Source of the DNA: Frateuria soli
GTDB lineage: Bacteria; Pseudomonadota; Gammaproteobacteria; Xanthomonadales; Rhodanobacteraceae
Assembly: GCF_021117385.1 (NCBI RefSeq)
Contig: NZ_CP088252.1
Span: forward strand, 1,984,001-2,048,000
Length of the DNA: 64,000 bases
Reading direction: 5' to 3'
Part shown: in pieces, positions 12,279 to 43,763 of the stretch
Layout of the letters: each line of letters starts with the position of its first letter
How positions within the stretch are numbered: position 1 is the stretch's first letter
Made by a program: the position numbers and the translations under genes
The notes under the pieces: model-generated
What the model was told of the DNA's origin: nothing
The model's database searches: none
Seen by the model: only the letters and a program-made list of their open reading frames with translations

Positions 12279-12932
12279 ATGCCGCGCCTTCGCTTCAAAC
12301 GCTACCTGCTCACCGGCCTGCTCACCTTCATCCCGTTGTGGGTGACCTGGACCGTGTTCAAGTTCGTGCTGGGCTTCCTGGCCGGTATCGGTGCGCCGAT
12401 GGTCGCCGCGGCGCTGGGCGCGCTGGCGCTGGTGGCGCCGGAAACCGCCCAAGCGCTGGGCAGCGCATGGTTCATTTCCGTCGTGGCGCTGCTGATCACC
12501 CTGCTGGCGCTGTACCTGCTCGGCTTCCTGGCCAGCCGGGTGATCGGGCAACGGCTGCTGGATACGTTCGACGCGCTGCTGCAGCGCATTCCGCTGGTAC
12601 AGACGATCTACGGCGGAACCAAGAAGCTGATGGCGGTGCTGCAGCAGAAGCCTTCGGGCGTGCAGCGGGTGGTGCTGGTCGACTTCCCGCACCCGGGCGC
12701 CAAGGCGATCGGCTTCGTCACGCGGCTGATGATCGAGGAAGGCAGCGGTCGCGAGATGGCCGCGGTGTTCGTGCCGACCACGCCCAACCCCACGGGCGGC
12801 TTCCTGCTGACCCTGCCGGTCGGAGCGCTCACGCCCACCGACTGGACCATGGACCAGGGCATGGCCTTCATCATTTCGGGCGGTGCGGTGGCACCCGATA
12901 GCTTGCCGGCCGCTGACCGGAAGCGGTTGTAG
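12279..12932 (+). CDS. DUF502 family membrane protein
   Basis: A 217-residue inner-membrane protein of the DUF502 family, which includes plant COV1. It has two N-terminal membrane helices (about residues 8-30 and 60-85) and a soluble domain with the conserved blocks IPLVQTIYGGTKKLM and VFVPTTPNPTGGFLLTLP. The ATG at 12279 opens PRLRFKRYLLTGLLTFIPLW, the usual beginning; the longer open frame upstream runs through a repeat. A -10-like TACAAT lies at 12247-12252. The function of the family in bacteria is unknown. Confidence 0.85.
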   Translation: MPRLRFKRYLLTGLLTFIPLWVTWTVFKFVLGFLAGIGAPMVAAALGALALVAPETAQALGSAWFISVVALLITLLALYLLGFLASRVIGQRLLDTFDALLQRIPLVQTIYGGTKKLMAVLQQKPSGVQRVVLVDFPHPGAKAIGFVTRLMIEEGSGREMAAVFVPTTPNPTGGFLLTLPVGALTPTDWTMDQGMAFIISGGAVAPDSLPAADRKRL

Positions 12933-37775: not shown

Positions 37776-37899
37776 GTCGTCGGGCGGCGACCGGCAATGA
37801 TAGCCCTCCCCGGCCGGCCTCGTGCTGCGCTGCGCATCGGCTACACACGGCATATCTGCTAATTTGCCGGGCTTTGCATCGACTTGGGGACAACCCTGC

Positions 37900-39888
<1,989 letters not shown>

Positions 39889-39992
39889 GGGGTTGCCAGG
39901 CGCCTCTCTCCCGCCAGCAAGCCCGTTCAACGTGGGTGGCACAGTCGGCTCCCTTCCGGGAGAGGGCCCGGGAGCGGCGGAACCGAGGCAAG

Positions 39993-40019
39993 AAAAAGGC
40001 GGCCCTGAGGCCGCCTTTT
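39993..40019. terminator. bidirectional terminator between the carboxylase gene and infC
   Basis: GGCGGCC (39998-40004) pairs with GGCCGCC (40009-40015) around a four-base loop. Five A residues precede (T run for the minus strand) and TTTT follows. It can end both converging transcripts. It lies just 4 bp beyond the infC stop. A degenerate CTCTCCCG palindrome is also present at 39901-39975. Confidence 0.92.
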
Positions 40020-40022
40020 CGT

Positions 40023-40550
40023 TTACTGCTTCTTCTTCGGCCCGATCATCATGACCATCTGGCGTCCTTCCAGCCTGGGGAAGGATTCCACCTGGCCGTT
40101 GTCGCCGATGTCCTCCTGGATCTTCCTGGCCAGGTTCTGGCCGAGGTCCTGGTGGGACATCTCACGGCCGCGGAAGCGGATCGTGACCTTGACCTTGTCG
40201 CCCTCTTCCAGGAAGCGAAGCATGTTGCGCAGCTTGATCTGGTAGTCGCCCACGTCCGTGACCGGACGGAACTTCACTTCCTTGATCTCGACCTGCTTCT
40301 GCTTCTTCTTGGCGGCGGACGCCTTCTTCTGGGCTTCGAACTTGAACTTGCCGTAATCCATGATGCGGCAGACCGGCGGGTCGCCGTTGGGCTGGATCTC
40401 GACCAGATCCATGCCCGCTTCCTGCGCCATGGCCAGCGCCTCGTCGCGGGTGAGAATGCCCAGCTGTTCCGAGTCGACGCCGATCACGCGCACGCGCGGC
40501 ACGCGGATTTCGAGGTTACGGCGGTTGCCCTTGTTGTCGGTGGTAGCGAT
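40023..40550 (-). CDS. infC: translation initiation factor IF-3, ATC start codon
   Basis: Binds the 30S subunit, prevents premature 50S joining and proofreads the start codon. No ATG fits: the conserved N-terminus reads [20 protein letters not shown] upstream of the first GTG (40502), and the homology begins at an ATC at 40550-40548. A perfect GGAGGA Shine-Dalgarno (40563-40558) lies 7 bases before that ATC. E. coli infC starts with AUU, and IF-3 represses its own translation by rejecting such codons; the same autoregulation is inferred here. The product is 175 residues and contains KFKFEAQKK and [12 protein letters not shown]. It follows thrS, but a terminator immediately follows it, and rpmI and rplT are not behind it. 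Confidence 0.95.
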
Positions 40551-40595: not shown

Positions 40596-42497
40596 TCAAC
40601 GCCGCGTTTCGGCCTGTAGTCGTTCGGCGAAGGCGGCCAGCGGCATGCTGCCCAGATCCTCGCCCGAACGGGTACGCACGGAAACGGCCCCCGCTTCCTT
40701 CTCGCGGTCACCGACCACGAGGAGATAAGGGACCTTCTGCAGCGTATGCTCGCGGATTTTATAGCCGACTTTTTCGTTGCGCAAATCGGCCTGGACGCGG
40801 AAGCCTTTGTCGACAAGGGCTTGCGTCACCTCGCGCACGTAACCGGCCTGGGCGTCGGTGATCGAGAACACCGCCGCCTGCACCGGGGCCAGCCATGCCG
40901 GCAGGTTGCCGGCATGGTGCTCGATCAGGATGCCGATGAAGCGTTCCATCGAACCGACGATGGCGCGATGCAGCATGACCGGGTGGCGCTTCTGCGACTG
41001 CTCGTCCACATACTCGGCGCCCAGCCGCTCGGGCATCATGAAATCGACCTGCATGGTGCCGACCTGCCAGGCGCGGCCGATCGAATCCTTCATGTGGTAC
41101 TCGATCTTCGGGCCATAGAAGGCGCCCTCCCCCGGCAGCTCTTCCCATTGGACGCCGGCGGAGGAAAGCGCCTTGCGCAATGCGTCCTCGGCACGGTCCC
41201 AGACCTCGTCCGAGCCAATGCGTTTGTCGGGGCGCAACGCGATTTTCAGCGCGATGTCCTTGAAGCCGAAGTCGCCGTACACCTGCATGGCCTGCTGGTG
41301 GAAGGCCGTGACCTCCGCTTCGATCTGCCCGGGCGTGCAGAAGATGTGGCCGTCGTCCTGGGTAAAGGCCCGCACGCGCATGATGCCGTGCAACGCGCCG
41401 GAGGGCTCGTTGCGGTGGCAGCCGCCGAACTCGCCGTAGCGGATCGGCAGCTCGCGGTAGCTGTGCAGGCCGGTGTTGAAGATCTGCACGTGGCCGGGGC
41501 AGTTCATCGGCTTGAGCGCGTAGGTGTGCTTCTCCGATTCGGTGAAGAACATGTTTTCCGCGTAGTTGTCCCAGTGGCCGGACTTCTTCCACAGCGACAC
41601 GTCAAGCACCTGCGGGCAACGCACTTCCTGGTAGCCGCTCTTGCGGTACACGCCGCGCATGTACTGCTCGACCTGCTGCCAGATCGCCCAGCCGTTCGGG
41701 TGCCAGAACACCATGCCGGGACTCTCTTCCTGCTGGTGGAACAGGTCCAGCGCCTTGCCGATCTTGCGGTGGTCGCGCTTCTCGGCCTCCTCCAGCTGGT
41801 GCAGGTAGGCCTTGAGGTCCTTGTCGTTGAGCCAGGCGGTGCCGTAGACGCGCGTCAGCATCGCGTTGTTGCTGTCGCCGCGCCAGTACGCGCCGGCCAC
41901 CTTCATCAGCTTGAACGATCGCAGCCTGGCCGTATTGGGCACGTGCGGGCCGCGGCACAGGTCGGTGAACTCGCCCTGGGTGTAGAGCGAGAGCTCCTCG
42001 TTGGACGGGATCGACTCGATGATCTCGGCCTTGTAGACCTCGCCCAGGTCGCGGAAGAACTTCACCGCCTCGTCGCGCGACTTCACCGAGCGCGAGACCG
42101 GCAGCGCCTCCTTGACGATCTTCTCCATCTCCGCCTCGATCTTCGCCAGGTCGTCGGGCGTGAACGGCCGCTCGTAGGCGAAGTCGTAGTAGAAGCCGTT
42201 GTCGATCACCGGGCCGATCGTGACCTGCGCGCCCGGATACAGGCGCTGCACGGCCTGCGCCAGCAGGTGCGCGGTGGAGTGGCGCAGGATCTCCAGCGCC
42301 TCGGGGCTCTTCTCGGTGACGATCTCCACGCGGGCGTCATGGTCGATCGGGAAGCTGGCGTCCACCAGCTTGCCGTCCACCTTGCCGGCGAGCGTCGCCT
42401 TGGCCAGGCCGGCGCCGATGGAGGCGGCCACGTCCTGGACGGTCACGGGATGGTCGAACGGCTTCTTGCTGCCGTCCGGGAGAGACACTTCGATCAT
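40596..42497 (-). CDS. thrS: threonyl-tRNA synthetase
   Basis: Class II synthetase that charges tRNA-Thr, 633 residues. An N-terminal TGS domain ([20 protein letters not shown]) precedes the editing domain with [12 protein letters not shown] and YDFAYERPF. The catalytic core follows with motif 2 in [26 protein letters not shown] and the zinc cysteine in [13 protein letters not shown], and then the anticodon-binding domain. The leader upstream holds a candidate threonine-responsive attenuator (separate entries). infC begins 45 bp downstream and is probably cotranscribed. Confidence 0.98.
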
Positions 42498-42517
42498 GGA
42501 TGGGAACCCCGGAAATC

Positions 42518-42539
42518 AAAAAAGGGCGAAACGCCCTTT
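42518..42539 (-). terminator. intrinsic terminator in the thrS leader (candidate attenuator)
   Basis: On the minus strand AAAGGGCG (42539-42532 in complement) pairs with CGCCCTTT over 8 bp with a 3-base loop, followed by a run of six T residues ending at 42518, about 20 nt before the thrS ATG. On the plus strand no T run follows, so it is oriented toward thrS. No gene lies upstream on the same strand that would need a terminator here, since the neighbouring epimerase gene is divergent. Confidence 0.85.
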
Positions 42540-42559
42540 CATGCACGAAACAAAGGCGT
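42531..42559 (-). promoter_or_regulatory. candidate antiterminator helix of the thrS leader
   Basis: In the leader RNA, ACGCCUUU (complement of 42559-42552) can pair with AAAGGGCGU (complement of 42539-42531) using five GC-rich pairs, one bulged G and three A-U pairs. This uses the whole 5' arm of the terminator, so the two structures exclude each other. The upstream strand starts 8 nt after the leader-peptide stop codon, where a ribosome resting at the stop would cover it. Folding was judged by eye. Confidence 0.55.
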
Positions 42560-42566
42560 CGGGAGG

Positions 42567-42593
42567 TCAGCGATGGAAAAGGGTAGTCGCCAT
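42567..42593 (-). CDS. putative thrS leader peptide MATTLFHR with tandem threonine codons
   Basis: A nine-codon reading frame, ATG GCG ACT ACC CTT TTC, then CAT CGC TGA, lies 70 nt before thrS and ends 28 nt before the terminator stem. Two of eight codons are adjacent threonine codons (42587-42582). If charged tRNA-Thr is scarce, a ribosome stalled here would leave the antiterminator strand free; a ribosome reaching the stop would cover it and let the terminator form. The Shine-Dalgarno is weak (GAG about 10 nt upstream), and an eight-residue peptide gives little statistical weight, so the call rests on the surrounding RNA elements. Confidence 0.55.
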   Translation of the reverse strand: MATTLFHR

Positions 42594-42648
42594 GTCGCAC
42601 GCTCGACCGGCGCTTACGCGCGGGCCACCTTGTCTCGAACGGACGCCT

Positions 42649-42654
42649 AGTCTA
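42649..42654 (-). promoter_or_regulatory. -10-like element upstream of the thrS leader
   Basis: TAGACT on the minus strand, the same -10 form seen before other genes here (for example 10289-10294), would start a transcript near 42642 and give a leader of about 145 nt. I see no good -35 box at 17 bp. Confidence 0.35.
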
Positions 42655-42755
42655 GCCGAGAATGCCTTGCAGGAGACGGGATCCCGTGCGCCGTGCGCCC
42701 GGCCCTCACGCTCCGGCCCGCTAGAATACCCCGTCCCAAACTGGAACCGTAACGG

Positions 42756-43763
42756 ATGCGCATCCTCGTCACCGGTACCGCCGGCTTCATCGGCGCCGCG
42801 CTCGCCCAGCGCCTGCTCGCGCGTGGCGACGAAGTGTTCGGCATCGACAACCACAACGATTATTACGACCCGTCGTTGAAGGAGGCGCGCCTGGCGCAGT
42901 TCGCCGGACACCCGGCCTATACCCACCTGCGCGCCGACCTGGCGGACGCCGACGCGATCGACCGCGCCTTTGCCGAGTTCCAGCCGCAGCGCGTGGTGAA
43001 CCTGGCCGCACAGGCCGGCGTGCGCTACTCGCTGAAGAACCCGCGCGCCTACGTTCGGAGCAACCTGGACGGCTTTCTCAACATCCTGGAAGGCTGCCGC
43101 CACGGCCGGATCGAGCACCTGGTCTACGCCTCGTCCAGCTCCGTCTACGGCGCCAACCGCAAGATGCCCTTCGCGGTGGAAGATGCGGTCGACCACCCGG
43201 TCAGCCTCTACGCCGCCAGCAAGAAGGCCAACGAGCTGATGGCGCACAGCTACAGCCATCTCTACGGCCTGCCTACCACCGGCCTGCGCTTCTTCACCGT
43301 GTACGGTCCGTGGGGCCGCCCGGACATGTCGCCGATCCTGTTCGCCGACCGCATCAGCCGCGGCGAGCCGATCGACGTCTTCAATCACGGCAACCACAGC
43401 CGCGACTTCACCTACATCGACGACATCGTCGAGGGTGTGGTCCGCACGCTCGACCATACGGCCCAACCCGATCCGGCCTACGACCCGGAGCATCCCAATC
43501 CGGGCACGTCCAACGCGCCCTACCGCGTCTACAACATCGGCAACGACCAGCCGGTGCAGTTGCTGCGCTTCATCGAGCTGCTGGAGCAGAACCTCGGCCG
43601 TACGGTCGAAAAGAACCTGCTGCCGATGCAGCCGGGCGACGTGCCCGACACCTGGGCCGACGTGTCCGCCCTGCGCCGCGACGTCGGCTATGCGCCCGGC
43701 ACCTCGATCGAGGATGGCGTCACCCGTTTCGTGCAGTGGTACCGCGAGTACCACGGGCGCTGA
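42756..43763 (+). CDS. NAD-dependent epimerase, probably UDP-glucuronate 4-epimerase
   Basis: A 335-residue extended short-chain dehydrogenase. The NAD-binding glycine motif is TGTAGFIG (residues 6-13) and the catalytic pair is Y152 and K156 in [11 protein letters not shown]. Length and the blocks [18 protein letters not shown] and [20 protein letters not shown] match UDP-glucuronate 4-epimerases that make UDP-galacturonate for capsule or LPS. No other polysaccharide gene is adjacent. A -10-like TAGAAT (42722-42727) lies 28 bp upstream; the gene is divergent from thrS. Confidence 0.9.

Follow-up and report, generated by a model that had tools for sequence, protein, structure and literature searches.

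How is the threonyl-tRNA synthetase gene, thrS, of Frateuria soli controlled? In Escherichia coli, threonyl-tRNA synthetase (ThrRS) binds anticodon-like hairpins at a split ribosome-binding site of thrS, the textbook case of translational self-repression by tRNA mimicry. In the 64,000-nt stretch of the F. soli genome analyzed here (contig NZ_CP088252.1, positions 1,984,001 to 2,048,000; hereafter the window), the minus strand 5' of thrS carries a short open reading frame (ORF) with adjacent threonine codons, followed by an intrinsic terminator (Table 1). Comparison with the thrS upstream regions of relatives makes it very probable that this leader is a ribosome-mediated transcription attenuator, which would raise thrS expression when charged tRNA-Thr is scarce.

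The leader of Frateuria soli thrS

The first-pass annotation of this DNA described a minus-strand -10-like TAGACT, a frame encoding MATTLFHR with tandem ACT ACC codons, and a terminator with an 8-bp stem and six T residues ending about 20 nt before thrS. All of these are present, and 20 nt separate the last T of the terminator from the thrS ATG (42497). The threonine codons ACT and ACC are codons 3 and 4 of the leader. The terminator arms, AAAGGGCG (42539-42532) and CGCCCTTT (42528-42521), enclose a TTT loop and form an 8-bp stem, which the flanking G-T pair extends to 9 bp; the six T residues lie at 42523-42518. As the upstream neighbor is divergent, the terminator serves no upstream co-directional gene. 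When folding was compared with that of shuffled sequences, the terminator fragment gave a z-score of -2.24 (3/200 shuffles as good) and the whole leader one of -2.66 (0/200), whereas the leader deprived of the 3' arm of the terminator folded no better than shuffles (z-score +0.29, 126/200).

Conservation of the leader ORF and the terminator

We detected thrS in 61/61 relatives, 143/147 genomes of the family and 221/250 genomes of the order, and added the best 80 loci from a contig search. Upstream regions were taken from 283 loci, which do not represent all matching genomes, and 140 further regions were picked by choice. Two loci were excluded before counting: L091, where the alignment starts at residue 29, and L220, a second, divergent thrS copy (53% identity) with an unclear start in one genome of the family (G010). 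Exclusion of regions that were shorter than 200 nt, or identical to another over the last 200 nt, left 272 distinct regions, among which close relatives are over-represented.

A threonine-rich frame (an ATG frame, 5 to 25 codons long, in which threonine codons number at least two and make up at least 20%) was found in 210/272 regions, against a mean of 4 in dinucleotide shuffles and 5/272 on the antisense strand. The same test applied to other residues gave counts far nearer to chance, the highest being that for arginine (91 vs. 52). A leader ORF with control codons, as expected of ribosome-mediated attenuators, is found in most of the 272 regions and in F. soli, where these codons are ACT ACC. 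We distinguished leader types by motif: type A by GACATG-NNN-AC, type B by ATGAC-N-CGA and type C by GAGGTGGCACATG. F. soli belongs to type A, which accounts for 169/272 regions, mostly with leaders starting MATT, MSTT or MRTT; type B (MTRT) comprises 21 regions and type C five. Outside these types fall 77 regions, 48 of which have a threonine-rich frame and form type D, for example MTPRTTT in Massilia and Janthinobacterium or MTPRTLT in Paraburkholderia; the densest frame was chosen here, which is wrong in at least one case (L040).

In type A, GACATG and the first two letters of codon 3 (AC) belong to the motif by which the type was defined and are hence fixed by construction. Not fixed in this way are the identity of codon 3 (ACT in 148/169 leaders), that of codon 4 (threonine in 127/169) and the length of the peptide, which is exactly eight residues in 129/169. 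TGA ends 122 of these 129 frames, and their codons 5-8 are variable; a fixed TGA beside variable codons is a coding signature. ACT is a rare threonine codon that is favored in type A and type D leaders: it makes up 2.9% of the threonine codons of thrS itself (78 type A loci) against 171/374 in the leaders. CGA accounts for 1.2% (type A) and 3.0% (type D) of the arginine codons of thrS, and for 21/22 (type B) and 54/91 (type D) of those in leaders, in a comparison to which types B and C each contributed a single thrS gene. The leader CGA directly precedes a threonine codon in 17/21 cases in type B and 40/54 in type D (e.g., L053 and L172). The preference for ACT and for CGA before threonine might serve to set the pace of the ribosome or the structure of the RNA.

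A first scan identified a terminator-like hairpin within the last 300 nt of 189/273 regions, compared to 40/546 shuffles. Under a looser definition, with the terminator at most 110 nt past the leader stop codon, one was present in 229/243 leaders compared to 68/729 shuffles (type A, 158/169; B, 21/21; C, 5/5; D, 45/48), so that an intrinsic terminator between leader ORF and gene recurs across the 243 leaders. In type A it starts 22-28 nt past the leader stop in 127/158 cases. The joint recurrence of leader and terminator is, on these counts, beyond chance. Attenuation of thrS had been proposed in the first-pass annotation with conservation in relatives as a check, and the conservation of the threonine codons, leader length, stop codon and terminator supports that proposal. 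In three loci (L009, L012, and L013) extra sequence with CCGGCCATCCATGGCCGGAC-like palindromes is found, with the terminator on one side and thrS on the other.

Competing helices

An alternative helix that consumes the 5' arm of the terminator had also been suggested, and it is indeed present: 42559-42552 can pair with 42539-42531 (ACGCCTTT/AAAGGGCGT, with one G bulged). We refer to it as 2:3, after the regions in Table 1, and to the terminator as 3:4. That account of the structure overlooked two elements, a hairpin in the ribosome-binding region (see below) and a helix between regions 1 and 2. The latter provides the protector helix of an attenuator, with the difference that region 1 is the ribosome-binding region of the leader and not its codons. 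Of the two predicted helices, 1:2 has the better support, in type A as well as in Burkholderiales-type leaders.

In F. soli the 1:2 duplex has a predicted energy of -18.2 kcal/mol, and the whole leader folds with 1:2 and the terminator jointly. Among 151 type A leaders, native pairs reached -14.58 kcal/mol, against -13.34 for swapped (0/5000) and -11.68 for shuffled pairs; 38 sequences beat all 20 of their own shuffles, where 7.2 were expected, and after thinning (n = 77) the test again gave 0/5000. For the Burkholderiales-type leaders of type D (n = 28) the corresponding energies were -18.74, -14.97, and -15.14 kcal/mol (0/5000), with 0/5000 and 1/5000 after thinning to 22 and 16 sequences. 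Type B showed no signal at -12 to +20, and 48/5000 at -45 to -12. Scanning for the best partner of region 2 in 79 type A sequences (one in two) placed it at -48 to -25, where pairing was 2.4 kcal/mol better than in shuffles, compared to at most 0.7 kcal/mol elsewhere. The Burkholderiales type gave a broad peak at about -24 to -1 (up to 2.4 kcal/mol), and the small type B set reached up to 1.3 kcal/mol, which shows the level of noise.

The energies of helix 2:3 and the terminator in F. soli are -12.8 and -11.7 kcal/mol, respectively. Because the energy of 2:3 showed no clear excess over shuffled spacers in type A, swap tests were added; these gave 3 and 7 of 2000 in type A, 0/2000 in type B and 0/2000 in type D, the last with 22 and 43 of 5000 after thinning. 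The folding lost upstream when a ribosome at the stop codon masks the RNA exceeded the shuffled control only in type D (11.07 vs. 8.38 kcal/mol). This ribosome-edge model was rejected, as it performed no better than shuffles in types A and B. The predicted antiterminator 2:3 is thus weakly supported in the lineage of F. soli and better in Burkholderiales-type leaders: the helix put forward in the first-pass annotation exists in F. soli and is supported in type D, gives mixed results in type B, and stays near chance in type A at large.

Several results weigh against the attenuator. For helix 2:3 in type A, on which the switch depends, the native energy (-10.78 kcal/mol) is near that of shuffled (-10.32) and nearly equal to that of reversed spacers (-10.5), and thinning raised the swap count to 72/5000 at 0.8 similarity and 896/5000 at 0.7; in type B, 2:3 is weaker than in shuffles (-10.24 vs. 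-10.93 kcal/mol) and than with the reversed spacer (-12.46). Masking by a ribosome at the stop codon cost less upstream folding than in the shuffled control in type A (3.47 vs. 4.82 kcal/mol) and type B (2.84 vs. 5.71). Helix 1:2 in type A gave 183/5000 under the strictest thinning (n = 25). An exact 6-nt complement of region 1 in region 2 was present in 27/152 sequences vs. 11.7 when swapped, a weak excess mostly due to one motif, and exact 7-nt complementarity showed no excess (3 vs. 3.0). No 1:2 signal was found in the five type C leaders, and the distant Lysobacterales (n = 13, mostly putatively leaderless) show a dip of 1.8 kcal/mol at -24, in likely promoter DNA that should not be transcribed, a warning of noise. 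Even under the looser definition 11/169 type A leaders have no terminator, some Lysobacterales lack a leader, and the permutation tests leave some shared ancestry.

The ribosome-binding region of the leader

The type A leaders share a GGTG motif, located 32-37 nt 5' of the leader ATG in 163 of the 164 measured (GGTGG in 155/164) and missing in 5/169 regions. It is invariant in 88 aligned blocks, taken from 124 distinct ones, GGTG having also been used to locate the block. Between GGTG and the start codon lies a conserved hairpin: 98.0% of 609 cells are paired, 4/7 pairs have changed on both sides, the covariation score is 0.199 compared to 0.143 for shuffles (0/500), and RNAalifold recovers the same structure unaided. 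A GNRA loop was considered as a conserved feature of this hairpin and rejected, as type A loops vary. In type B the start is preceded by another, small hairpin of a different kind, with 100% of 80 cells paired and two pairs with compensatory changes; its covariation exceeds all 500 shuffles, and its pair types show no excess (2 vs. 2.4). In type C, GAGGTGG stands immediately before CACATG, which suggests that AGGTGG is the Shine-Dalgarno sequence. We infer that AGGTGG serves as such in the leader, and that the type A hairpin splits the ribosome-binding site. By eye, GGTGG also seemed able to pair with ACTACC, the threonine codons; this was set aside, since ACT is kept also in leaders that lack GGTGG.

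A covariance model of this upstream block matched 40/121 Lysobacterales genomes at E ≤ 0.01. In 36 of the 121, one hit each was obtained at E < 1e-9, every one just 5' of thrS; a further seven hits, of lower significance (E = 5.6e-4 to 0.0098), resemble chance matches. Sequences from several of these genomes had gone into the model, and the stricter filters used in the search can lose weak matches.

A promoter-like pair (TTGACA/TATAAT, at least 9/12 matches) was found 5' of GGTGG in 85/162 type A regions, compared to 1/162 mononucleotide shuffles; the best pair in F. soli itself is poor (6/12). Based on the -10-like hexamer, the leader RNA of F. soli would start at approximately 42642. In 10/12 distant Lysobacterales leaders (L265, L268-L270, L272-L274, L277, L278, and L280) the gap between the end of a -10-like hexamer and the leader start codon is 6-9 nt, and in nine of them 6-7 nt, because of which these ten ORFs are probably leaderless; their -35 elements are weak. 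The leaderless rule was passed by 11/48 type D leaders, one of which (L168) was judged a false match, against a background of 2.9%. The putatively leaderless L278 encodes MKTTTKN and lies in an AT-rich region.

Apparent replacement of the ThrRS operator

For comparison with the E. coli-type operator, we selected 39 thrS upstream regions, one per other gammaproteobacterial family, from 136 matches, mostly the better-scoring ones. These were scanned within 90 nt of thrS for a hairpin resembling an anticodon arm with CGU, GGU or UGU in the loop. The first scan, restricted to 7-nt loops, proved too strict (6/39 in this class sample, 3/169 in type A); its successor tolerates a mismatch at the loop and requires G or C in the stem. 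The final scan found such a hairpin, in keeping with the E. coli operator, in 21/39 other families, of which a few may be chance, and in 0/219 Lysobacterales regions (types A-C plus another 24 that we assigned to the order), although its fixed loop form can miss operators. The 53 remaining regions from the best-80 loci yielded six; in shuffles the mean was 0.2 among the 39 and no higher than 1.2 in any other group. The loop triplets of the 21 hairpins (class sample, L285-L321) are CGU in 13, the triplet of the E. coli operator, GGU in four and UGU in four, some of the last being perhaps chance. Two of the 39 regions have a threonine-rich frame with a terminator, and three have a threonine-rich ATG frame.

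Because operator-like hairpins occur in 21/39 families elsewhere and in 0/219 Lysobacterales regions, the attenuator seems to have replaced the ThrRS operator in Lysobacterales. In L311 and L314, the operator-like hairpins have a lower stem and C-C mismatch similar to those of the type A hairpin (GUGGCC-C...C-GGYC), which could be a remnant of the operator.

Proposed mechanism and alternative explanations

In the mechanism that we propose, helix 1:2 would form in the absence of a ribosome, followed by the terminator 3:4, and transcription would halt. With ample Thr-tRNA, a ribosome would reach the leader stop codon and cover region 2, and the terminator would form likewise. With scarce Thr-tRNA, presumably the species with anticodon GGU that reads both ACT and ACC, the ribosome would stall at codon 3 or 4 and keep region 1 out of play, either by remaining on the Shine-Dalgarno sequence or by standing between strands 1 and 2; with no more than one or two peptide bonds made at that point, it could still be gripping the Shine-Dalgarno sequence. 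Region 2, now free, would pair with the 5' arm of the terminator (2:3), allowing polymerase to read into thrS-infC. A more specific version, which we offer tentatively and regard as rather doubtful in its entirety, is that of a "ribosome-binding-site-gated" attenuator, in which the competitor of the antiterminator is the Shine-Dalgarno region of the leader and the signal is the hold of the first ribosome on it; the threonine codons would follow directly on the start codon in order that a ribosome stalled there is still bound to that region. This version would include a similar layout in the Burkholderiales type, with a different leader sequence, leaderless distant relatives, and an ancestral operator that was replaced, with the type A hairpin maybe its remnant.

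Attenuation could also be real with the helix between the Shine-Dalgarno region and the post-stop region as sole competitor, limiting translation of the leader; no true 2:3 would then exist in the F. soli lineage, and read-through would come from something else that the stalled ribosome does, for example coupling with polymerase. This fits the type A data, where 1:2 is the better supported and 2:3 near chance, but in F. soli the energies of 2:3 and the terminator differ little, as a switch requires, and 2:3 is supported in type D; we consider it unlikely. That the leader is an operator of the E. coli kind, where synthetase bound to a tRNA-like hairpin prevents translation (here perhaps that of the leader peptide), would account for the conserved type A hairpin between a Shine-Dalgarno-like sequence and a start codon, for the small type B hairpin before its start, and for the likeness of the type A stem to, e.g., GUGGCC-C-CUCGUAU-C-GGUCAC in L311 and L314. 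The type A loop is, however, variable in length and sequence, mimics of the anticodon arm were found by our scan in 21/39 other families and in none of the 219 Lysobacterales regions, and the threonine codons, fixed stop and terminator would be left unexplained, which makes this explanation improbable.

Terminated leaders can serve as small RNAs, as with trpL of Sinorhizobium, and the high conservation of the upstream block would suit a constitutive short transcript whose RNA or peptide acts in trans, with threonine-independent read-through into thrS. Against this, threonine codons are specifically enriched, and that before the gene of the threonyl-tRNA synthetase, and each of the 36 strong block-model hits precedes thrS; we give this explanation very little weight. 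A T-box, for which thrS is a target in Firmicutes, or another riboswitch sensing tRNA or amino acid, is almost certainly not involved, since the 64-kb window has no Rfam match at the gathering score, T-box included. Only two Rfam matches fall in the leader region, and both score well short of the gathering threshold (E = 0.76 and 3.5). The Rfam family Thr_leader has no gathering-score match in the window and is not one of these two.

Genomic context

The features of the locus are listed in Table 1. The genes thrS and infC lie on a common strand, separated by 93 nt according to the ORF calls, and are perhaps co-transcribed. By-eye reading of window positions 37822-40502, which was not a dedicated search, revealed no rpmI-rplT-pheST beside infC, where these genes are found in E. 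coli, and a convergent, biotin carboxylase-like ORF after infC. Among named records, from which those closest to the source genome may be omitted, the ThrRS of F. soli (genome size 3.49 Mb) is nearest to those of Rhodanobacter, Dyella and other Lysobacterales. ARAGORN reported a 98-nt tRNA-Thr (GGT) at 12393-12490 on the plus strand, which is probably a false positive, as it sits in an apparent membrane-protein coding sequence.

Table 1. Features of the thrS locus of F. soli, in window coordinates.
Feature	Position	Strand	Basis
-10-like TAGACT	42649..42654	-	read from sequence
Region 1, CGAGACAAGGTGG; holds Shine-Dalgarno-like AGGTGG; partner of region 2	42625..42637	-	
Hairpin GGCC.C.GCGC-GUAA-GCGC.C.GGUC; AGGTGG on 5' side, leader start on 3' side	42605..42626	-	
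Leader ORF, ATG GCG ACT ACC CTT TTC CAT CGC TGA (MATTLFHR*)	42593-42567	-	
Region 2, CGCCTTTGTTTCG; partner of region 1 or (partly) region 3	42546..42558	-	
Region 3; terminator 5' arm and 3' side of proposed antiterminator 2:3	42531..42539	-	
Intrinsic terminator with flanking pair and T run	42518..42540	-	sequence, folding, relatives
thrS, threonine--tRNA ligase; regulated gene	40596..42497	-	NCBIfam TIGR00418, 716.8 bits, above cut-off
infC, translation initiation factor IF-3; 3' of thrS	40023..40502	-	NCBIfam TIGR00168, above cut-off
Upstream neighbor, epimerase-like gene, divergent	42756-43763	+	

Relation to known systems

A close parallel in kind is E. coli pheST, likewise a synthetase operon preceded by a leader peptide rich in the cognate residue (pheM) and an intrinsic terminator. 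The F. soli leader differs from it in the amino acid concerned, in its eight residues with threonine at codons 3 and 4, and in that the best-supported competing helix uses the ribosome-binding region and not the codons. With the thr, his and trp attenuators of E. coli it shares the 1:2, 2:3, and 3:4 layout and the control codons in a leader ORF, but in the thrS leader region 1 lies 5' of the leader start. In trp, distal RNA is described as pairing with the site where ribosomes bind the leader, so that this element has precedent. The E. coli thrS operator concerns the same gene and also has a hairpin that interrupts a ribosome-binding site; in the attenuator, however, the split site would be that of the leader ORF, a transcription terminator is present, and no anticodon mimic was found in the 219 regions scanned.

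Leader-peptide attenuators of a synthetase gene have been predicted computationally for hisS in bacilli (Naville and Gautheret, 2010; PMC2965389), a case that is alike in target class and differs in amino acid (histidine) and phylum (Firmicutes). In the main text of that article "thrS" and "Xanthomonad" do not occur, and threonyl-tRNA synthetase is named once, for E. coli. Short 5' UTRs (untranslated regions) of two tRNA-synthetase genes of B. cenocepacia, BCAL3373 and BCAL3436, are mentioned in PMC5688073. A word search found no thrS attenuator in the main texts of PMC2965389, PMC4833913, PMC10272879, PMC5688073, PMC10175445, or PMC4603805. The kind of mechanism is known, and its thrS target and layout appear to be undescribed in the open-access literature searched; an earlier prediction is possible.

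Taken together, a large bacterial group seems to have dropped the ThrRS operator in favor of a ribosome that reads threonine codons, which would amount to a swap of regulatory logic on one and the same gene. With eight residues, a fixed ACT codon and a ribosome-binding site that appears to be split, the thrS leader would be a compact system in which to ask how early a ribosome must stall in order to switch transcription.

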